From an uncultured Bacteroidales bacterium (GTDB taxonomy: Bacteria > Bacteroidota > Bacteroidia > Bacteroidales > Paludibacteraceae): a stretch of 64,000 nt of DNA. Made by a program: the position numbers and the translations under genes. Below the pieces are notes generated by a model, which was not told the DNA's origin, did no database searches, and saw nothing but the letters and a program-made list of their open reading frames with translations. Below are positions 34,009-45,222 of the stretch, one piece after another (the stretch's first letter is position 1; each line of letters opens with the position of its first letter). The stretch covers positions 1 to 64,000 of the forward strand of contig CAMJJT010000002.1 in NCBI GenBank assembly GCA_946406195.1. The letters run 5' to 3'.

Positions 34009-34443
34009 CTATTCCACCGCATTGAATGCGGGTTGGCCCTGCGCTTTCTTCTCCTTCAGTATAACCATTCGCACGAAAACCGGAAACATCCCGTAAATCT
34101 TTACTTTTTCTTCTCCTTCATTCAGATATGGATCTCCGCCGCCTTTAAACTGCGCGTTCCATCTCTCCCGTAACTCAGCGTACCTCGGATGATTTTTGTC
34201 ACGAATAATTGTGCTTGCTTCTCGGCAAACATCCTTCCAAATTCTCGCCTGAGCCGATTCTGCCTCAGTACGCGGACTTCGATCATAATCCCTGCTCCGA
34301 CGTTTAAATACCTCCTGCGGACCGACTTTAATCACCCTTCCACTATCATCTTTCCACTCCTTAATACGCATTTGTATGCCCGAATACCCGGCCAGTTTGC
34401 CTCGCAAACGATCTATTCCCGGACTCAATTCTGCTTGTGCCAT
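34009..34443 (-). CDS. Hypothetical protein
   Basis: 144 aa ORF with consistent coding character. Confidence 0.5.
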   Translation of the reverse strand: MAQAELSPGIDRLRGKLAGYSGIQMRIKEWKDDSGRVIKVGPQEVFKRRSRDYDRSPRTEAESAQARIWKDVCREASTIIRDKNHPRYAELRERWNAQFKGGGDPYLNEGEEKVKIYGMFPVFVRMVILKEKKAQGQPAFNAVE

Positions 34444-34611
34444 ATTCTTTTCTCCTTTTTAATATTTTTACACTATACACCATACACTGTACACAAAAAT
34501 GCATAGCTTATTTTACATAACTCTTTAGTTCTTCTTTAATTCTTTTTTAGTTCATCTTTGGTTCTTATTTAGTTCATCTTTAGTTCTTTAGTCTATTTTT
34601 CTGTAACATTT

Positions 34612-34640
34612 AACCACGTATTTGCCTACGTGGTTATTTT
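34612..34640. terminator. Intrinsic terminator-like hairpin
   Basis: AACCACGTA-tttgcc-TACGTGGTT-ATTTT. Confidence 0.6.
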
Positions 34641-34703
34641 GTATATTCGTGGATTACTTCTTTACTCCTTCGAAACAGTCCACGATCTTCACTTTGCCGT
34701 AGA

Positions 34704-34838
34704 TTATGCTTCGGAGAACTGATCCTTCCCCACTCCACAGATGGGGCAAACCCAATCTTCGGGGAGTTCGTTAAACGCTTTGCCTTCTACGTTGGGGTCG
34801 TATTCGTACCCGCAAACGTCACAAATGTACTTTGCCAT
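34704..34838 (-). CDS. Rubredoxin
   Basis: Minus-strand translation [44 protein letters not shown]; two CxxCG motifs; absent from supplied ORF track. Confidence 0.93.
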
Positions 34839-35160
34839 AGTTGTTAAATTTTTGTGAATAAGATTTTTCGGGTGCAAAGGTACAAAAAATATTTTATATA
34901 TGCAAATAATTATAGAAAAATCGTGGATTTTTCGTTAAAGGGTTAAGATGGTCACTACGTGACGTTAAATGTATGGTATATAGATAAAAAGAGAGATTAT
35001 TTGCATAGAAAGAACTATTCAAAAGGCACTTTTCGTAAAAAAAACAACTTTTTAAAGTCTTTTTTCTTTTAAAATTTGCACTATTGAAAGTTTTTTTGTA
35101 CCTTTGCAGCGAAATGAAATCATATTGATATCAATTAACATCAAATAGGAGGAAAAATTA

Positions 35161-35468
35161 TGGCACAAACAGCAATGACCGTCCGTGTGGACAATAACAT
35201 TAAGAAGCAATTTGATGCCCTTTGCGAGCAATTCGGTATGAGTGTTAATGCGGCAGTAAATGTGTTTATCAATGCCGTTGTTCGTACCCGCTCTATTCCT
35301 TTTTCGATTAGCGCAGAAGAAGATCAGACACGCAAACGCGCGCTGGAAGCCTTTCTTTCTGCAGACCGTTCTAACAGACCGGAAATGACATTGGATGAGA
35401 TTAACGAAGAGATTCGTAAAGCCCGTCAAGAGCGTAAAGAGCGTTTAGCAAAAGAAGGTAAAATCTAA
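35161..35468 (+). CDS. RelB/DinJ-family antitoxin
   Basis: MTVRVDNNIKKQFDALCEQFGMSVNAAVNVFINAVVRTRSIPF. Confidence 0.85.
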
Positions 35469-35885
35469 ATGGCGAAGTGTATGGTATATGCAGTAATTGA
35501 CACAAATGTGTTTGTGTCTGCGTACATGACGCACAATCTAAAATCTGCGACTTCAAAAGTCGTTCAGCTTTTATTTAAAGGTGAAATAAACATTTTGTAT
35601 AACGACGAAATAATCGCTGAATATGTAGATGTTCTTTCACGGCCTCATCTTCGAATAAACCCAGTAGAACGGGATACGTTATTGGCTCATATTCGAAAGA
35701 ACGGAATTTATACTAATCGGACATCATTTGGTGAGTTGCTGATTGATGAGGATGACCGTGTTTTCTATGAAGTGGCACTTTCTGAAGAAGATTCATTCCT
35801 TGTCACCGGTAACTTGAAGCATTTTCCGATTGATCCGCGAGTGGTAACTCCGGCACAAATGCTGCAAATTCTTGGAGAAGAGTAA
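35469..35885 (+). CDS. PIN-domain putative toxin
   Basis: VIDTNVFVSAYM...EIIAEYVDVL...DEDDRVFYEVALSEEDSFLVTGNLKHFP. Confidence 0.85.
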   Translation: MAKCMVYAVIDTNVFVSAYMTHNLKSATSKVVQLLFKGEINILYNDEIIAEYVDVLSRPHLRINPVERDTLLAHIRKNGIYTNRTSFGELLIDEDDRVFYEVALSEEDSFLVTGNLKHFPIDPRVVTPAQMLQILGEE

Positions 35886-35939
35886 TTCTTCTCTACAATA
35901 CGTAAAAGATCATTTGCCAGTGGTGGGGAAATAAAAATT

Positions 35940-35962
35940 AGGGTGAGGCACTGCCCCACCCT
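35940..35962 (-). terminator. Terminator at end of the Hxs gene cluster
   Basis: Minus strand: AGGGTGGGGCAGTGCCTCACCCT followed by AATTTTTATTT. Confidence 0.7.
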
Positions 35963-35971
35963 AGAAAATCC

Positions 35972-36844
35972 TTATTGTGTAAATGGACGAATTCCATAAA
36001 ATGTACTATGAGAAGTAGAGAAGAAACCACAACACTGGGATTTGACTGTGCATGTGTCACAGATTGGGAGATACTTATTTTTCCAATCAGAAATAGATTG
36101 TTTAGCAAATGGATGCAAGTTTTCCGGCAACAAGCAAAGAGGGAGATTGAATAACGAAACATCAAACTCCAGTTGGGAAAGGTATATGACCGCTTGTTGC
36201 AGTTGGGGCATATAGTTAATCGGTTCAACCCAAACAAGATCACGATTCTTGATGGTATAGCCGATGTCTTCCATTGCCATAAATGCAACGCAAGAAACGA
36301 AAGCGAGATTCTTGGAAATGAAACGTGCCATCTGCGGCAAGCGTTGATAGTTTTGCTTTGTCAGGACGACACGCAATTCAATATCCACATCATTGGCTGC
36401 AAGATTATATAAGCCAATGAGCGTCTGATTATAGGCATTTTCTGCTCCTGCTATACGGTCATGGATGATTGGTGAATCGGAATGAAAAGGCACACCAACA
36501 ATGACCATTCCCTCTGCCACTTGTGCCAAGCGTTCTGCGTAGGCTCCATCAGCAAAGCGTCTTCCATTGGATAAAATTTGGATGTGCGTTTTGGGTAAGC
36601 GTTTACGAATATAGGCAATCAAATCAAACAAGCGATCGCCGAGCAAGGTTGGTTCGCCGCCTGTGATGCCGATAGTGGGCAGTTCGATAGGTGCGCTGTC
36701 TATGAGACGGATGTTTTTCTCGTAGAAGAAATCTATATCATCTTTGTTCACCGGCGGTTGGCAGCACATGAGACAATGATTGTTGCATTGTCCGGTGACA
36801 AACAAAGCATTGTCATTTGATTGTATGTCTATTGTATCACGCAT
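35972..36844 (-). CDS. hxsC: His-Xaa-Ser system radical SAM protein HxsC
   Basis: FVTGQCNNHCLMCCQPP, GITGGEPTLLG; adjacent to HxsB/HxsD/HxsA. Confidence 0.8.
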   Translation of the reverse strand: MRDTIDIQSNDNALFVTGQCNNHCLMCCQPPVNKDDIDFFYEKNIRLIDSAPIELPTIGITGGEPTLLGDRLFDLIAYIRKRLPKTHIQILSNGRRFADGAYAERLAQVAEGMVIVGVPFHSDSPIIHDRIAGAENAYNQTLIGLYNLAANDVDIELRVVLTKQNYQRLPQMARFISKNLAFVSCVAFMAMEDIGYTIKNRDLVWVEPINYMPQLQQAVIYLSQLEFDVSLFNLPLCLLPENLHPFAKQSISDWKNKYLPICDTCTVKSQCCGFFSTSHSTFYGIRPFTQ

Positions 36845-38246
36845 TGCGACCTTTTATCCAATTAGTAAAAATAGGCATCACTTCCTCACCTCGGTTTTTG
36901 AGTAGCGAAAGTATATGTTCTACGATGGCTTTGTATTTTTGGCATAAGAGCGAAGTCGGTCGGTGTCCATACATGGAGCCTTGTGTGCTGTAGTTGCGTA
37001 CAGGGTCTGCTCCGCAGTAAGATTGCAAGGGACAATCAGAACACCCTGCTATGGTTTCCGTTGCCCAACAATCGGCAAAGCGTTGTGCTTTTTCTCCATA
37101 AAACAATGATTCATAAGTGTCGGATATACTTCCTAAACGGAAAGTATAATCTCCAGCTTCAGCTAACATGCGCGATTCGTCTGACGCATAGACATAGCCA
37201 TCGTAATTATACACAACTACACTATTTACGATTCCTGCCGGAGATTGCAAATCCACAAAGCCGATAGGGAAAGGCGTGAGTATTTTTTGCAATATAAGGC
37301 GCGTGAACTCTTCCAAAAACAATTCACCTGACTTGTTGATCTCGATGATGTAGTCCAACATTTGTTTGTAGAACTCAATGAAGCACGTTGTGTATGCTTG
37401 CCAATCGTTATTTTCGGTGGCTAATCCATACGGATTAAGCGCACGGATGAATATGGATCGAAAACCATTTTCACGGTATGCATCAACTATCTCCTTTGGA
37501 TAATTCAATGCAGGAACGGACGTTGTCATCAGCGCAGACACTTTGTCTTCACCTAAAGTTTGGCGTGCGCGTGCGATGCCAGCCACCACTTTCTCATAGT
37601 TGTCGATCTTTCCGCGATTTGAATTATGCAAGGCACGTGGTCCATCCAACGAAGTAGATATGAGGATGTTGTACTGCTTGCAAATGGAAAGCACATCATC
37701 CGTGAGGTTGACGCTGTTGGTACATAGTACGTAAGTCAGTGTCTTGTGTGCAGATTGGTTGATTTCTTCGGCTTTCTCAATAGCCGCCCGGATGAGATGA
37801 GGCACAAGGGATGGTTCGCCGCCTTGGAACTCCATTGTAAGATGTTCGGAGGGAGAGCGGAACATCAGTTCAACGGCTTTTAGCAAGTCTGATAATTGCA
37901 TATCTTTACCTTGCGCACATTCCTGTTGGCTCGTGGCTTGGCAATAGACGCAGTTTTGATTGCAACGAAGAGTGAGTACAAAGATATGAAGCGCCGTGAA
38001 CGAGTCAAGAAAGGCTTTCTTTGTACGCAAACGCGCAGCCAAAACATCTATGGTTGATGGAATTGGTGTCGGTGAGATAAAGAAGTTTGCCAACAAATCG
38101 TGATAGAGGTCTTCTTCCTCAGTCAGTTCACGGTTGACGATACGCGATGCCGTTCCTTGTGGACAGAATAGATAATCCCCCACTTCATTGACAAGCAATT
38201 CTTGGTCTTCAAATCGCTCGAATCGGAATGGCAGCAAGTAGTACAT
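36837..38246 (-). CDS. hxsB: His-Xaa-Ser system radical SAM protein HxsB
   Basis: LRCNQNCVYCQ, EFQGGEPSL, C-terminal SPASM-like Cys cluster (CSDCPLQSYCGADP). Confidence 0.8.
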   Translation of the reverse strand: MYYLLPFRFERFEDQELLVNEVGDYLFCPQGTASRIVNRELTEEEDLYHDLLANFFISPTPIPSTIDVLAARLRTKKAFLDSFTALHIFVLTLRCNQNCVYCQATSQQECAQGKDMQLSDLLKAVELMFRSPSEHLTMEFQGGEPSLVPHLIRAAIEKAEEINQSAHKTLTYVLCTNSVNLTDDVLSICKQYNILISTSLDGPRALHNSNRGKIDNYEKVVAGIARARQTLGEDKVSALMTTSVPALNYPKEIVDAYRENGFRSIFIRALNPYGLATENNDWQAYTTCFIEFYKQMLDYIIEINKSGELFLEEFTRLILQKILTPFPIGFVDLQSPAGIVNSVVVYNYDGYVYASDESRMLAEAGDYTFRLGSISDTYESLFYGEKAQRFADCWATETIAGCSDCPLQSYCGADPVRNYSTQGSMYGHRPTSLLCQKYKAIVEHILSLLKNRGEEVMPIFTNWIKGRNA

Positions 38247-38546
38247 CTATTCGGATATTTCTTCAAAATTGTCGTTATTGGCAAATGCCTTAATATAGAG
38301 AATTGTGCGCAGATCTTTGGTTTCATTGTCCACAATCTGCTGCACTTTGAAGTCATTGAGACGAGTTAGGAAACGCTCTTTAAGGGCGCGCTCGTCCTCG
38401 TTGCATTGCGGCTTTGGTTCAAAACAAAGCGTTTCAGCGTTCCCATTCAACTGATGAGTGACGAAATATTGGTTAGTTTCCCAATATACCGCCTTACTGA
38501 TCACTTCATCAGTGAAGATGGTTCTATCAATAGTGAGAGTGAGCAT
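38247..38546 (-). CDS. hxsD: His-Xaa-Ser system protein HxsD
   Basis: Small protein between HxsA and HxsB (MLTLTIDRTIFTDEVISKAVYW...). Confidence 0.75.
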   Translation of the reverse strand: MLTLTIDRTIFTDEVISKAVYWETNQYFVTHQLNGNAETLCFEPKPQCNEDERALKERFLTRLNDFKVQQIVDNETKDLRTILYIKAFANNDNFEEISE

Positions 38547-39263
38547 TTATTTACCGTACTTTCTTAAAGCTGTTACTGTCGTATTGTCAGCAATGCCAGT
38601 AACAGAAAGTTTTGCTTCCTTTTGGAATTTCTTTATGCCGTTTTCAATAGCCTCATCGTAGATTACATAGCCACCTGAATTTGTCTTAATATCGTCAAGA
38701 AAACCATGCTTTTGTAAAAGTGTTGCCAAAACTTTCACATCTGTTCCAATACATCCCAGTTGAAGTGTTCTATCTCCTAATCCAAAGATGTAGTTCCCGT
38801 TATTGATTTTAGGCTTTGTCGGGGTATTAGTCTGAACTTTTTTTACTGTATCGGGTTGCTGTACAGTGTCAGTAACTATTACAGGTTTCTGCTCAACCGG
38901 CTTCGGCGTAGTCGTAGTAGTTGTAGGCATAGTTGTCGTAGTTGTTCTCGTAGCAGATGAAGATGTTGTGCGCGAACTACTGCTGCCACCTCCGTAATAG
39001 CCACCAGAACTGGAACGGTGAGAACTATGCGAACGGTGTGAACTATGACTGCGATGCCCAGCAACCACATACATACCTCCATTACCAAATTTGATAACAT
39101 ATTTTAATAGCTTTTTGGAAGCACTATTTGTTATTCCAGTTAATAATTTGTTTCCGTCTATATTAGTAGGGATAGACGGGAAGTCGGTATTTGCCGCAGA
39201 AGCTATGCTTGCAGTAGAAGCGACCAGCATACCATTCAGTAACTTCTTAAATGAGTTTTTCAT
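38547..39263 (-). CDS. hxsA: His-Xaa-Ser repeat protein HxsA with C-terminal peptidoglycan-binding-like domain
   Basis: Signal peptide; HRSHSSHRSHSSHRS; C-terminal DRTLQLGCIGTDVKVLATLLQKHGFL...IENGIKKFQKEAKLSVTGIAD. Confidence 0.82.
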   Translation of the reverse strand: MKNSFKKLLNGMLVASTASIASAANTDFPSIPTNIDGNKLLTGITNSASKKLLKYVIKFGNGGMYVVAGHRSHSSHRSHSSHRSSSGGYYGGGSSSSRTTSSSATRTTTTTMPTTTTTTPKPVEQKPVIVTDTVQQPDTVKKVQTNTPTKPKINNGNYIFGLGDRTLQLGCIGTDVKVLATLLQKHGFLDDIKTNSGGYVIYDEAIENGIKKFQKEAKLSVTGIADNTTVTALRKYGK

Positions 39264-40054
39264 AGATCCCAATCTTTTAGGTTATATGTCGATTCAATTT
39301 TTTCTTCAATGCTATCCGGAAGAGCAACAAAGAAATCAATATCCGTTATCATTTCTATGTCATCTACAGACATTGCGTACTTGTTTAGTGGTTTGTGCCC
39401 TGCCTGATTAGACATCATAAAGCCGATAGCACTCCATGAATTTTCGTTTTGCCGAAGAATGACTTTATAAAACGCATCAGGAACAGCAATTCTATCTGAG
39501 TAGGAATGTTGACCTATCGTTTTGGGGGTTGCAGAAACAATAGGACCACATGCTACATATACATGGTTAAACTTTGTCGCCATATTACGCACATGCTCCT
39601 CCAAGTCTTTCCAATCTCCTTTATTGAGATTTTTGTTTTGAGGACAAATGTTTGAAGTGTAGAAACTCTCGTCCATTGCCTGTTTACTCCATTTCATATC
39701 TGCTGCCGGAGCCATGTGTCCACGGTCATAGCCAGAGTTTTTATAATCTTCCGTGGAAGGACTTTGCCATATTTGCGGATCAGGGACAAAATTATTCCCT
39801 CTTGGTTCAGTGCCTGCCACTTCTTCTGAAGTTAGCTCATAGGCAACCCAGTTTGGAATTCTCCAATCCGTATTAAAACTTACCGTGTACCCAGTATGTC
39901 TTACAATTTTCTCCGGTTGGCTAGAGAGGATTTTTGGAATTTCATAAGCAGTTTGATCAGCATTCTCCCTAAAACTTGCATAGACAATAAGGGTTAAGAT
40001 AAAGCACACAACCAATGCTGTGTTTACTAATATATTGCGTGTAGTTCCATTCAT
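39260..40054 (-). CDS. DNA/RNA non-specific endonuclease, membrane-anchored
   Basis: N-terminal TM; catalytic YDRGHMAPAADM and SNICPQNKNLNKGDW. Confidence 0.9.
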   Translation of the reverse strand: MNGTTRNILVNTALVVCFILTLIVYASFRENADQTAYEIPKILSSQPEKIVRHTGYTVSFNTDWRIPNWVAYELTSEEVAGTEPRGNNFVPDPQIWQSPSTEDYKNSGYDRGHMAPAADMKWSKQAMDESFYTSNICPQNKNLNKGDWKDLEEHVRNMATKFNHVYVACGPIVSATPKTIGQHSYSDRIAVPDAFYKVILRQNENSWSAIGFMMSNQAGHKPLNKYAMSVDDIEMITDIDFFVALPDSIEEKIESTYNLKDWDL

Positions 40055-40055
40055 A

Positions 40056-42263
40056 TCAATTAATTATTGGTAAGTCCTCTACATTAATTTGCGTTAATTT
40101 CTCCGTAGTAATATCGACATCCTGAGCAAGACGATTAGCTTGTCTCTCAAGTGTTTTTTCAAAAACATTGCGAACCAAACGACCATTTCCGAAATTCGCA
40201 TCTTTGTGAGCCACCTCATTTTCAAAATATTTCTGCAAATGTTCTTTTGCACCCTCTCCGAAGTGGTACTCATATTTTTTCATATTTACCTCAAAAATTT
40301 GCAACAATTCATCTGCTGAATAATCGGGGAACTCAATGTAACGGTTGAAGCGTGATTGCAAGCCGGGGTTGGAGTCTATAAAATCCTTCATATTCTTCGT
40401 ATATCCGGCAAGAATAACAATAAGTCTGTCGCGGTTATCCTCCATCCGTTTCAGCAGTGTAGCAATAGCTTCTTTACCGAAATCATTTTCGCTTCCACTA
40501 ATGAGCGAATATGCCTCATCTATAAAGAGAACTCCATCCAATGCACTGTCTATTATTTTGTTGGTTTTCACTGCCGTTTGCCCTACATACTCTGCTACTA
40601 ACCCTGCACGGTCTGTTTCTACCAAATGCCCTTTACTTACAACGCCAAGATCTTTGTATATCTTTGCCAGAATACGTGCCACTGTTGTTTTTCCCGTTCC
40701 GGGATTTCCTGTAAACACGCAGTGGTAAGAGACAGACGAAGTCTTTAATCCTTTAGCTTCCCGCGCTTGCTGAATCTTAACAAAGTTAGAAAGCGTTTCA
40801 ACTTCTTTCTTGACGGAGCCTAATCCTATTAATTCATCGAGCATTTTTGATGAAGTATTTGTTCTCGGCTTACTACCTTTTGGGGGTGTTGTTGACGCTA
40901 CCCCAATGGGATTTGAATAATCATCGCCTATAATACCCATTAGCAAACGCTCTAATTGCTTTTTGTCTTTTATAAGGACTTCGCGACCGGCTGCACCTCT
41001 GTTCGGTCCAACTATACCAGCAGCCTCTAACTGGTCGGACAATTTCCCCGCACGATTATAACCTATTTCAAACTTACGTTGTAATTGTGAGGTAGAGCCC
41101 TCTTGTTTATCAACAATCCATCTGGCTGCATCTGCAAATAGGGGGTCTAAATCAGGTATATGCGGAGCAGAGATAGGTGTAAATTCCTCTTCCTCTTGCT
41201 CATCCTCTTGCGGAACAAATTCTTGATCGCCGCTTCCCTGCAACTTCATGATATTACCTAACCACTCTGCCTCTTCTTTTGTGACAGTATTGTCTGCTTT
41301 GGCGGTAATAGAAGCAAAACGATAAATGTCAACTAAGAATTTTTGATGTAACATCGTGTCTTTTGTTGACAATAGGCGAGACAGCATAAATGTCTCTGAA
41401 ATAGCCGGAGAAGCATCGATGTATGCCTTTACTCCCTTTATAATAGAAGATGCCTCAGATTGGTATGCTCCTTTTAAAGTTGAGAGATATGTGTAAGGTT
41501 TGTTCTTAGAACATCCTTTTGTAAGAGCAATAAAATATAAGACTCCAAGACCTTCCTTACTATCAAGGTCTATCGGATGTCCCAAGCCAATATAACAACG
41601 AATAATATCTACCAAAAATAGAAGGCGAACTTTTTCTCTGACACTCAATATAGAACTACCATTTATCACGATTTTTACTCCCATAGAATCTACAAGAGTT
41701 TCAAGGCCTTGTATTTTTAACACGTTCTCGTAATCTGCGTATAAATCTTCTGCTGCTTTGATGACTTGGTTGTAATATTTCTCGCTTATGTTATTAGTTG
41801 TATTCTTAGCAGCCTCTATCTCCTCGTGATATATTGCAGATCTCAACGCCTCGCCCACATTACTGCTTGCCTCATTTTTGGCGAATTCTTTTTCTTTTTT
41901 ATTAGCTATTATTGCTGCTATAATATGGGCAACTATAGTGACTCCAAGGAAAGATAACCCTATCCATGTATCTACGGCAAATCCTAATAATATAGCACAT
42001 GCTACAAGTATCCACATACCGAAAGATAACCAAATCAAGCAGCCTTCTTTACACCCTATGTTATCTGCATTTCCTTTGCCACTTCCTATCTTTTGACGAT
42101 TATACAATCCCGTTCCCGGTATGCTTGTGTTAAGATAGGTTCCATTAGGTCCAAATGACAAACTTGCTCCACGTGGTCCGATGGAAGTACTAATTCCCTT
42201 TTTGCCAAAATTAAGTCTAACTCCGGGTATCAAAGTTTTTCTTTTTCTCCAAGTCCAAGCCAT
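40056..42263 (-). CDS. DUF4236 - TM - TerB-like - FtsK-gamma-like - CbxX/CfqX AAA+ protein
   Basis: N-terminal GVRLNFGKKGISTSIGPRGASLSFGPNGTYLNTSIPGTGLY; middle FLVDIYRFASITAKADNTVTKEEAEWLG; ISTSQLQRKFEIGYNRA-like wHTH; Walker A FTGNPGTGKTTVARILAKIY. Confidence 0.8.
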   Translation of the reverse strand: MAWTWRKRKTLIPGVRLNFGKKGISTSIGPRGASLSFGPNGTYLNTSIPGTGLYNRQKIGSGKGNADNIGCKEGCLIWLSFGMWILVACAILLGFAVDTWIGLSFLGVTIVAHIIAAIIANKKEKEFAKNEASSNVGEALRSAIYHEEIEAAKNTTNNISEKYYNQVIKAAEDLYADYENVLKIQGLETLVDSMGVKIVINGSSILSVREKVRLLFLVDIIRCYIGLGHPIDLDSKEGLGVLYFIALTKGCSKNKPYTYLSTLKGAYQSEASSIIKGVKAYIDASPAISETFMLSRLLSTKDTMLHQKFLVDIYRFASITAKADNTVTKEEAEWLGNIMKLQGSGDQEFVPQEDEQEEEEFTPISAPHIPDLDPLFADAARWIVDKQEGSTSQLQRKFEIGYNRAGKLSDQLEAAGIVGPNRGAAGREVLIKDKKQLERLLMGIIGDDYSNPIGVASTTPPKGSKPRTNTSSKMLDELIGLGSVKKEVETLSNFVKIQQAREAKGLKTSSVSYHCVFTGNPGTGKTTVARILAKIYKDLGVVSKGHLVETDRAGLVAEYVGQTAVKTNKIIDSALDGVLFIDEAYSLISGSENDFGKEAIATLLKRMEDNRDRLIVILAGYTKNMKDFIDSNPGLQSRFNRYIEFPDYSADELLQIFEVNMKKYEYHFGEGAKEHLQKYFENEVAHKDANFGNGRLVRNVFEKTLERQANRLAQDVDITTEKLTQINVEDLPIIN

Positions 42264-42997
42264 TATTTTTCTGCTTCTTTTTCTTTTTTAGCCTCTCGCA
42301 ATTCTTCCAGATAACTTGCTGTAATTACACCCGAAGGCAAAGCGATTACGGCAACTCCAAGAATAGCAGAAAGCATACTAATTATTCTGCCCATATCAGT
42401 TGCTGGGTATATATCTCCGTATCCAACTGTGGTCAGCGTCGTTGTAGCCCAATAGAGTGCGTCGAAGAAATCATCAAACATCGCAGATTCTTCAACGTTA
42501 AACATAATCAATGCAGTAATAACAATGTAGAATAGCGCAATCCAAAATACGGTAAATAGGATATGACGCTCTTTGCGAAGTACTTTGAACAAGATTTGTA
42601 CGTTCTTTGAGTAACGGACGAACTTAAACACACGCAATATCTTGAAAAGACGCGTAATACGGAATAGTTTTAGTGCTTTGTTTACAACGATGAGTGAAGG
42701 TAATATTGATAGCAAATCGATAATTGCAAAGGCTGTAAATGGGTACGTTAGAAAGGCCACCCATTTTGGGCGATCATTAAGGCGCAAGTCAGCTGTTAGC
42801 CAACGTAACAAATAATCGATAATAAAAACAATTACAGATACTTTGTCGAACCATTCAAGCCACACATTCTGTTCGCGAAACGCAAGCGGAATAATACTGA
42901 TGAGGATGAAAAACAACATCGCCCAATCATAAAATCTGCTAATGACTGAGTTGCGTCCTGTTTCTATCGTTTCGTATATTTCATTTCTCCAATTCAT
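42263..42997 (-). CDS. Voltage-gated K+ channel (Kv-like)
   Basis: S4-like RITRLFKILRVFKFVRYSK and selectivity filter TTVGYGD; ATG at 42997. Confidence 0.9.
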   Translation of the reverse strand: MNWRNEIYETIETGRNSVISRFYDWAMLFFILISIIPLAFREQNVWLEWFDKVSVIVFIIDYLLRWLTADLRLNDRPKWVAFLTYPFTAFAIIDLLSILPSLIVVNKALKLFRITRLFKILRVFKFVRYSKNVQILFKVLRKERHILFTVFWIALFYIVITALIMFNVEESAMFDDFFDALYWATTTLTTVGYGDIYPATDMGRIISMLSAILGVAVIALPSGVITASYLEELREAKKEKEAEK

Positions 42998-43018
42998 GTC
43001 GGGTATGAATTTTGTCTG

Positions 43019-43050
43019 CAAAGGTACAACATTTTTTTGATATATGCAAA
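43019..43050 (-). promoter_or_regulatory. Sigma-ABfr promoter driving the channel/AAA/nuclease/Hxs cluster
   Basis: Minus strand TTTGCATATATCAAAAAAATGTTGTACCTTTG. Confidence 0.8.
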
Positions 43051-43110
43051 TAAAACTCTCTTTTTTTGAACAGACAAAAAAAAATCTGCACTTGGGATGC
43101 AGATTTATTG
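43019..43110 (-). repeat. Terminator-promoter intergenic module, copy A
   Basis: Promoter + CTCTCTTTTTTTGAACAGACA + AAATCTGCA-N7-TGCAGATTT hairpin. Confidence 0.8.
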
Positions 43111-43233
43111 TTTTTGTGAAGCCTGGGAGACTCTAAAGGAATGAGATTTCGAAGCGGCTAATTTCAAAGCGTGACAATTTGTCACTGTTTCATTCCCATC
43201 ATCTTTCAAGCGCTTTTTTGTAACTCTCCTATA
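43105..43233 (-). pseudogene. Relic fragment of a BRO-N/antirepressor-like gene
   Basis: Minus translation YRRVTKKRLKDDGNETVTNCHALKLAASKSHSFRVSQASQKQ* vs WNKLKQRLAEEGNETVTNCHQLKLTAADGK at 9142-9516. Confidence 0.65.
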
Positions 43234-43236
43234 TGT

Positions 43237-43635
43237 TTATACCTTTAACAACTCTTCTATTTTTTGTAAAAGTTCGTAAGCTAACGGTTTTAAAGCCTCC
43301 AAATCTTCACGCGAGACATCATAGATAACATCGTAATCCGCCTTCTCTCGCATATTCTCCATGACGGCAATAAAATGACCAAACTTCGGATCAATAATGC
43401 CTGTTTTGATGAAATGCTGATGAAACTGCGCATTTGTGCCATGATGCGATCTTGATTGTATCCCATTCGCCACAAAAATCGCATGGATAGCATGAAAGAC
43501 CGCGTAATAGAAACGATTGGCAGCAGCCGAAATGGATTCAATCTGCATCAATTGTTCTCCATCAGCAAGACATGCACGGCATTTATCTAAATGTAGCTGC
43601 GTCAAAACTTGTTTATCTTCGTTTGTCAGGCTCAT
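43237..43635 (-). CDS. HEPN domain protein
   Basis: 'ANRFYYAVFHAIHAIF' HEPN-type helix; overlaps NTase gene. Confidence 0.8.
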   Translation of the reverse strand: MSLTNEDKQVLTQLHLDKCRACLADGEQLMQIESISAAANRFYYAVFHAIHAIFVANGIQSRSHHGTNAQFHQHFIKTGIIDPKFGHFIAVMENMREKADYDVIYDVSREDLEALKPLAYELLQKIEELLKV

Positions 43636-43949
43636 ACTAATACGATTTTTTCGTCCTCAACATTACAATAGAATGGAGTGAAATGGCGTTGCTCCCATTC
43701 TCGACGGGTATAAAGCATCGGATTTATCTCTTGACCTATCTGCCATCCCAGTTCTACAAACGGGTATGCATACATGTCGTAATCCTGTAGTTGCTGTTTT
43801 TCTTTGTCCACCAATACCAGCAAATCCCAGTCGGAGTCGGAGCGATTATCACCACGAGCCCGAGAACCATATAGCCATAGATTACTTCCTTCGGGAAGAA
43901 TCTGCTTACCCATCATACTGATGCGTTGTATGGTTGCTGTTTTTGTCAT
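43632..43949 (-). CDS. Minimal nucleotidyltransferase (MNT)
   Basis: LYGSRARGDNRSDSDWDLLVLV. Confidence 0.88.
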   Translation of the reverse strand: MTKTATIQRISMMGKQILPEGSNLWLYGSRARGDNRSDSDWDLLVLVDKEKQQLQDYDMYAYPFVELGWQIGQEINPMLYTRREWEQRHFTPFYCNVEDEKIVLV

Positions 43950-43989
43950 AAAGGTTGTGATTTTGTACGTTCTTTGCAACTTACGGCTG

Positions 43990-44021
43990 CAAAGGTACTA
44001 CATTTTTTTGATATATGCAAA
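43990..44021 (-). promoter_or_regulatory. Sigma-ABfr promoter for MNT-HEPN pair
   Basis: Minus strand TTTGCATATATCAAAAAAATGTAGTACCTTTG. Confidence 0.8.
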
Positions 44022-44082
44022 TAAAACTCTCTTTTTTTGAACAGACACAAAAAAAATCTGCACTTTTGATGCAGATTTATTG
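43990..44082 (-). repeat. Terminator-promoter intergenic module, copy B
   Basis: Near-identical to copy A. Confidence 0.8.
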
Positions 44083-44136
44083 TATTCCAGTGTTGTGGAG
44101 AGTGTTCATCCTCGCTATTCATTATACCGGTTTCAT

Positions 44137-44412
44137 TTACGACAATAGTTCCAAAATCCGTTTGGCATCGGAGCGTGTGAAGCCTTCTGCATGAATAGTC
44201 TGGCTACCTTTGCTTTCAATGACGATGTCGCCAAATAGCAAGTGCATCGAGATATTGACAGAACCGATGCGTTCACGCATGATAACCGATTGATCATAGC
44301 CGATGATTTTGCCTTTGTAATAGGTCACTTTGTCATCATCGATGATCAGTTTGTCCGGGAAAATGGCATTCCCATTGCCGGAAATCCGGCTTGCTACAAA
44401 TGTATGAGTCAT
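44137..44412 (-). CDS. Small PH-like domain protein
   Basis: 91 aa, 'KLIIDDDKVTYYKGKIIGYDQSVIMRERIGSVNISMHLLFGDIVIESKG' resembles bacterial PH domains. Confidence 0.6.
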   Translation of the reverse strand: MTHTFVASRISGNGNAIFPDKLIIDDDKVTYYKGKIIGYDQSVIMRERIGSVNISMHLLFGDIVIESKGSQTIHAEGFTRSDAKRILELLS

Positions 44413-44434
44413 AGTGGTATTTGTATTTTTCGTG

Positions 44435-44522
44435 CAAAATTACAACTTTTTTCTGAATTACGCAAATAAACTCTCTTTTTTTCTACATTCACAAAAAAAA
44501 TCTGCACTTTTGATGCAGATTA
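44435..44522 (-). repeat. Terminator-promoter intergenic module, copy C
   Basis: Diverged promoter half, near-identical terminator half AAAAAAAATCTGCACTTTTGATGCAGATT. Confidence 0.75.
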
Positions 44523-45134
44523 GTCCACATAAGTTACGTACGAACCGCGGACACATTTCCAACGTCCATTAGTGAGAAGCTGGACATCATCGCCATAGAC
44601 ACCATCTATCTTATCGCCGTCATCGTTCACGGCATACCAATAACGGCCATGTTTGATGAGGAAACAGCCGTTCCAAAACATAAGCGGCGATTCATCTGAA
44701 TAACACCCCACCTTACGACCGGAACAATGATAGATGTCCCAATAACCGGAACTACGTTGTAACGTCACATAGCCAAAGGGGAAATAATAGATCGTTTTGC
44801 CATAGATGCCGTCCACGAGATCTCCGTTTTCATCAGCAAGATACCATGTGTTGCCTCGTCTGACACGATAATAGCCGTTATAAAGCAGGTTTATTTCATT
44901 GCCGTACAAAATAGACCATGAATCGCGGTATATATAGATGGTCCGACCGGAAGTCTTCACATAACATCCGTTCCAAAGGTCCTGAAAATGGTCCGTACAG
45001 GAAACGGATTTGCGAGTGGTTACTTCGTGTCCGGAATCTTCGAACCAAAGATCGTACTTGTCGGAAACCACATACTGTGCCTGTATGGTCATGCAAGCCA
45101 TCAGCGCGAGGAAGAAGGAATAAAGACGTTTCAT
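44520..45134 (-). CDS. Secreted WG-repeat-like protein
   Basis: Signal peptide then repeated 'YYRVRRGNTWYLADENGDLVDGIYG' / 'CFLIKHGRYWYAVNDDGDKIDGVYG'. Confidence 0.6.
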   Translation of the reverse strand: MKRLYSFFLALMACMTIQAQYVVSDKYDLWFEDSGHEVTTRKSVSCTDHFQDLWNGCYVKTSGRTIYIYRDSWSILYGNEINLLYNGYYRVRRGNTWYLADENGDLVDGIYGKTIYYFPFGYVTLQRSSGYWDIYHCSGRKVGCYSDESPLMFWNGCFLIKHGRYWYAVNDDGDKIDGVYGDDVQLLTNGRWKCVRGSYVTYVD

Positions 45135-45222
45135 AAGTCCGCACATTTAATGGGTTACAAAATCTTTTTTCTCCCCATGTGCAAATACTATGCCAAAAGC
45201 AGGCGAGGAGAGCTTGCCTGAC

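Follow-up and report, generated by a model that had tools for sequence, protein, structure and literature searches.

The window analysed here, a stretch of 64,000 nucleotides from an uncultured Bacteroidales bacterium (contig CAMJJT010000002.1), carries on its reverse strand an operon in which a protein with five consecutive His-Xaa-Ser (HxS) triplets is followed by hxsD and by two radical SAM maturase genes, hxsB and hxsC, and is preceded by genes for an ion channel, an AAA+ ATPase and a DNA/RNA non-specific endonuclease (EndoNS). Comparison of sequences shows the gene set, the operon and the conservation of the repeat, and we consider it probable that the four hxs genes form an Hxs peptide-modification system, in which a leader would be gripped, the HxS triplets would be modified by HxsB and HxsC, perhaps by cross-linking, and the product would be exported and held at the wall. 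The Hxs system (NCBIfam TIGR03976-TIGR03979), which PMC9062424 attributes to Haft and Basu, is itself a kind already described from genomes; the novelty lies in the composite make-up of the operon and in the fact that it recurs. The features of the locus are listed in Table 1.

Table 1. Features of the hxs locus, with positions in the window.
Feature	Position	Strand	Basis
HxS core HRSHSSHRSHSSHRS	39012..39056	-	residues 70-84; varied codons, shuffle test, congener comparison
Putative leader/recognition motif KKLLKYVIKFGNGGMYVVAG	39057..39116	-	residues 50-69; conserved ahead of the core in homologues; congener identity 80-90%
C-terminal region with PG_binding_1-like domain	38547..38786	-	residues 160-238; profile match
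hxsA-role gene, 238 aa	38547..39263	-	ATG start; TIGR03979 51.4 bits (cut-off 121.65); PF01471 39.6 bits (cut-off 23)
hxsD, 99 aa	38247..38546	-	TIGR03976 61.8 bits (cut-off 50); predicted beta-alpha-beta-beta-long-alpha fold, pLDDT 93
hxsB, radical SAM maturase, 469 aa	36837..38246	-	TIGR03978 561.4 bits (cut-off 370); model pLDDT 91
hxsC, radical SAM maturase, 290 aa, short form	35972..36844	-	TIGR03977 335.9 bits (cut-off 267.9)
DNA/RNA non-specific endonuclease (EndoNS)	39260..40054	-	PF01223 188 bits; N-terminal hydrophobic anchor, DRGH motif
DUF4236 + FtsK_gamma + SpoVK/CbbX-like AAA+ ATPase, 735 aa	40056..42263	-	profile matches
Voltage-gated-type ion channel, 252 aa	42263..43021	-	PF00520 113 bits
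Approximate low-GC variable region with the operon	34009..45146		between genes 34009-34443 and 44520-45146

The HxS core and the protein that carries it

The preliminary description had placed five HxS triplets at this position, and the reverse complement of 39012-39056 (CAT CGC AGT CAT AGT TCA CAC CGT TCG CAT AGT TCT CAC CGT TCC) bears this out, since its translation consists of exactly five triplets, which hold 5 of the 6 His of the 238-aa protein. When the residues of this protein were shuffled 200,000 times, five consecutive HxS triplets never arose, and the core is therefore more than a product of chance. Moreover, its codons are mixed, with His written as CAT or CAC, the middle residue as, for example, CGC or CGT, and Ser as AGT, TCA, TCG, TCT or TCC, so that a DNA repeat or a slippage product could be ruled out.

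The conservation of the core was followed in a set of 79 HxsA-role proteins, encoded by genomes and plasmids and picked by the presence of three or more HxS/T triplets. The columns for H and S in the core show 90% conservation or more, up to full invariance, the runs comprise 3-12 triplets, and the middle position is varied (S, R, Y, A, T and others). In the longest runs, Ser occupies the third position in 484 of 484 triplets; the way of picking inflates this conservation of the register somewhat, and Thr was nonetheless never found. The triplet periodicity, the loss of which among homologues had been named beforehand as a ground for refutation, is thus kept. Compared with two congeners, the core is identical at 15 of 15 residues in spite of a high synonymous divergence (ps 1.02 and 0.52) and the motif KKLLKYVIKFGNGGMYVVAG at 80-90%, while the PG-binding region is 61-73% and the signal region only 43-61% identical; at the level of sequence, the core is under purifying selection.

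The N-terminus of the HxsA-role protein (residues 1-24, MKNSFKKLLNGMLVASTASIASAA) is signal-like, in keeping with the secreted architecture that had been proposed. The putative leader motif and the core are followed by a linker rich in Gly, Ser, Thr and Pro, the sequence of which is as earlier quoted, and by a PG_binding_1 domain at residues 173-233, whose score above the gathering threshold agrees with the expected peptidoglycan-binding-like C-terminus. This domain is found in 51 of the 79 HxsA-role homologues, and many of those without it are short and HxsA2-like, their core lying at the C-terminus. On one point we read the protein differently: the hydrophobic segment described before the core corresponds to KKLLKYVIKFGNGGMYVVAG, which is rich in Lys and can be aligned to a K-x-(V/I)-(L/I)-K-like motif that homologues conserve ahead of their core. 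Being conserved like a leader, it was rejected as a membrane helix, and a leader recognised by the maturases is the more likely reading.

The identification as HxsA stands as to the role, given the tandem His-Xaa-Ser repeats adjoining hxsD, hxsB and hxsC, but not as to the formal family, since the 238-aa protein does not reach the TIGR03979 cut-off. By its sequence, it is classed as an HxsA-role protein, a divergent HxsA outside TIGR03979 membership. PGAP gives no hxsA name to the Hymenobacter and Adhaeribacter counterparts either, and a protein search with HxsA against plasmids returned no match, probably masked by low-complexity filtering. On the whole, the sequence had been read correctly and the identification was essentially right.

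The maturases and HxsD

The two radical SAM enzymes that had been expected next to HxsA are both present, with HxsB and HxsC above the cut-offs of their models (Table 1). In HxsB, the CxxxCxxC of radical-SAM enzymes is kept, as is a conserved group of Cys at the C-terminus; HxsC, too, has both a CxxxCxxC cluster of the radical-SAM type and a cluster of C-terminal Cys. In the predicted model of HxsB, the N-terminus (residues ~1-83) is RRE-like, with a beta-beta-beta-alpha order, that is three strands and then helices, as in RREs; no match to Pfam PqqD was found in HxsB. The best Foldseek match over the full length of HxsB was CteB (5why/5wgg, E 1e-20), followed by anSME, ChlB, TigE and SuiB, all of the best full-length matches being peptide or protein maturases; the match is a full-length one, in which the alignment of the N-terminal domain itself is not resolved residue by residue. 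CteB and the ranthipeptide/sactipeptide maturases act on Cys, whereas the HxsA-role protein has a single Cys, outside the core. By profiles, HxsB stands no further from PapB and the sulfatase maturases than from the cyclophane enzymes, and it falls below the cut-offs of the GrrM, YhhB and FxsB models (68, 69 and 39 bits vs 310, 445 and 370, respectively).

The N-terminus of HxsC is shorter by 85-90 aa than in ten homologues. The short form is common to a clade of Bacteroidales that includes one Treponema, and on the HxsB tree a single change accounts for it; it is therefore a trait of the clade, and a broken gene was rejected. The Treponema member, a MAG contig whose short-HxsC hxs cluster falls within the Bacteroidales clade, represents either horizontal transfer or a binning error.

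An RRE was also considered for HxsD and rejected, as the confident predicted model has no winged-helix and gave weak Pcc1/ferredoxin-like matches (E 0.03); in the fold comparison, HxsD resembled no known recognition domain. With the NCBIfam model, HxsD was detected in this genome alone among 399 Bacteroidota. Since a local model finds it adjoining hxsB in most related loci, this seeming uniqueness comes from sampling and from the reach of the model.

The seven-gene operon, its island and its recurrence

With the upstream channel, AAA+ and EndoNS genes, an extension absent from the preliminary description, the operon comprises seven genes (43021-35972). The TGA stop of EndoNS overlaps the ATG of hxsA as ATGA, and hxsD, hxsB and hxsC lie downstream with no gaps or overlapping; the three upstream genes likewise follow one another gaplessly. 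Because of its N-terminal hydrophobic stretch, EndoNS is probably exported, as is HxsA. The operon lies in the stretch between about 34 and 45 kb of the window, where the GC content is 39-45%, vs mostly 47-51% in the flanks, and it is bordered by toxin-antitoxin-like pairs of the RelB/PIN and HEPN/nucleotidyltransferase types (35160-35885 on the forward strand and 43237-43979 on the reverse strand).

In the genus, hxs genes occur in 5 of 61 genomes. Two congeners, G565, the closest species, whose contig ends 1.5 kb past lon, and G554, with one extra open frame between channel and AAA+, have the seven genes in the same order, with different neighbours and at different sites. In G573 (L146, 6398-15466), homologues of the two genes that flank the island of the window enclose unrelated cargo, and the site between these flanking genes is a probable integration hotspot. 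The ps values between these genomes are 0.28-0.69 for HxsD, HxsB and HxsC, vs 0.69-0.83 for HxsA and the three upstream genes; this greater closeness of the maturase part suggests that it was exchanged separately, as a cassette that recombined on its own. Between the window and L141, synonymous divergence falls sharply from 0.69-0.83 (38547-43021) to 0.28-0.37 in HxsD/HxsB (36837-38546).

Outside the genus, hxs genes occur in many phyla and on plasmids and phage; in Klebsiella, the plasmids that have them number in the hundreds. A Leptospira phage (KF114877.1) and a Leptospira plasmid have nearly identical hxsADBC genes, with an HxsA devoid of the PG-binding domain, and three proteobacterial and cyanobacterial plasmids have thermonuclease and HNH nuclease genes near hxsC. 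The locus of the window shares with the described Hxs system the HxsB, HxsC and HxsD equivalogs above cut-off and the HxS core, to which the Klebsiella HxsA stretch AGHRSHSSHRSHSSHRSSSGGGYYGG is almost identical; it differs in the HxsA below cut-off, in the short HxsC and in the upstream channel, AAA+ and nuclease. The Hymenobacter and Adhaeribacter plasmids are alike in the hxsA(PG-binding)-D-B-C order, in the architecture of HxsA and in an HxsB 50-53% identical, but they have a long HxsC, more HxS triplets and no adjoining channel, AAA+ or nuclease.

In 7-8 Bacteroidales loci, hxsA is preceded by genes for a kinase, a VWA protein, a PP2C and a TerY_C-type protein, recalling the TerY-P islands (VWA, PP2C, kinase, zinc ribbon); in the window, no TerY-P genes were seen in the flanks inspected, about 20-64 kb. 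TerY-P triads, some extended by SpoVK-type AAA+ ATPases, have been proposed as metal-sensing phospho-switches and are found with restriction systems (PMC11090510). Eight rumen/gut Bacteroidales loci have hxsADBC within longer operons, where the TerY_C, Ser/Thr kinase, VWA and PP2C genes lie ~0-5 kb upstream of hxsA, and the same operons encode families without a Pfam match, with the motifs 'NILSDYxAF', 'CKYCGQSAG' and 'FNxGKATVxLDxDG'.

It is conceivable, though we hold it doubtful, that all parts of the seven-gene operon act together as an envelope defence or inter-bacterial conflict system, a reading which is compatible with peptide modification and extends it. The recurrence of the same seven genes at other sites in the two congeners speaks for it, as do the carriage of hxs on plasmids and on the Leptospira phage and the VWA, PP2C, kinase and TerY_C genes adjoining hxs in Bacteroidales, a triad linked to defence (PMC11090510). 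Moreover, nuclease and channel genes adjoin hxs far above chance in other Bacteroidota. Among 80 loci taken from GTDB genomes for the similarity of their HxsB and inspected for neighbours within ~6 kb, EndoNS was found beside hxs in 9, against 0.18 expected, and close homologues of the channel in 7, against 0.009. The expected values derive from copy numbers across one family only, which counts against this reading, and the loci are related, which makes the P-values approximate; even with a background ten times as high, P is 1e-4 for EndoNS and 1e-9 for the channel. Since 9 changes for EndoNS and 6 for the channel are needed on the HxsB tree, shared descent is insufficient to explain the association. 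On the other hand, another genome of the genus, G087, has the channel, AAA (DUF4236) and EndoNS genes without hxs (L125, 5915-9633), which makes them a module of their own, most hxs loci are without them, and composite islands may gather genes that do not cooperate. The PADLOC defence models gave no convincing match, with weak radical-SAM (pVip) and AAA+ (IetA) matches, and a known anti-phage defence system was rejected on this ground. The module of G087 is preceded by a second putative channel (L125, 4661-5437).

Candidate chemistries and possible role

The steps from recognition of the leader, through modification and cross-linking, to export and binding at the wall are inferred to run as follows. 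HxsA would start out as a protein that carries a Sec-type signal, then a short leader motif and the HxS core, and ends in a part that binds the cell wall; HxsB would grip the leader through its RRE-like N-terminal domain, perhaps together with HxsD; HxsB and HxsC would then modify the HxS triplets, perhaps forming three-residue cyclophane cross-links from His C2 to Ser C-beta, and the modified, stiffened peptide would be exported and held at peptidoglycan. The three-residue cyclophane is the best fit because of the invariant i/i+2 spacing of His and Ser with a free middle residue. The known enzymes of this type join an aromatic residue i to the C-beta of i+2, with partners that include Phe-Ser (MscB) and His (HaaB, YhhB) (PMC11002830). 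The mechanism is supported by the A-D-B-C order common to the Hymenobacter/Adhaeribacter plasmids and the two congeners, and by weak matches of HxsB to the GrrM/OscB, YhhB and FxsB models; against it counts that HxsA, as a complete secreted protein, exceeds the usual RiPP precursors in size, and no protease or peptide exporter is found in the operon. The triceptide enzymes (XncB, OscB, MscB/FxsB, HaaB, YhhB) have an aromatic-x-y motif and an i/i+2 linkage, the likeness here being one of sequence spacing, but those systems use one enzyme and short precursors, where the present one would have two enzymes, HxsD and a wall-binding precursor, and HxsB is far below the cut-offs of their models. His-Ser cross-linking is, for us, the likeliest single chemistry, held tentatively and with slightly less than even confidence.

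Next to it, and in our opinion unlikely, HxsB and HxsC could oxidise the Ser of each HxS triplet to formylglycine or another oxidised form, like the anaerobic sulfatase maturases. HxsB is near to these enzymes by profile (96 bits), by sequence of solved structures (E 7e-23) and by fold (4k36), and the Ser is invariant in the triplets; however, oxidation leaves unexplained why His at i-2 is kept as strictly as Ser, and why there are two radical enzymes and long tandem arrays. Metal binding is frequent among His-rich repeats and some hxs operons have genes for TerY_C metal-binding proteins close by, but an unmodified HxS array serving as a metal-binding or wall-contact segment, with the radical enzymes acting elsewhere, is very improbable, since nearly all loci of sufficient sequence length have an HxS protein together with hxsB/hxsC, and metal binding would need only the His, not the unvarying Ser at the third position.

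The chemistry and purpose of Hxs appear undescribed in the openly licensed literature, where annotations and a network analysis, and no experimental work on HxsA-D, were found, yet these systems are widespread. If the i/i+2 His-Ser cross-linking is true, it predicts a loss of 2 Da per triplet. A further step, which we regard as rather unlikely, would make a His-Ser cross-link ladder on a wall-anchored protein the active element in a conflict system of the envelope, together with the channel, the SpoVK-like AAA+ and the exported nuclease. The seven-gene composition hints at a role at the cell envelope, for which a part in conflict is plausible from the genes involved, and the repeated association with a channel, TerY-P genes and a nuclease that is probably exported offers a first functional context in which Hxs may be tested.
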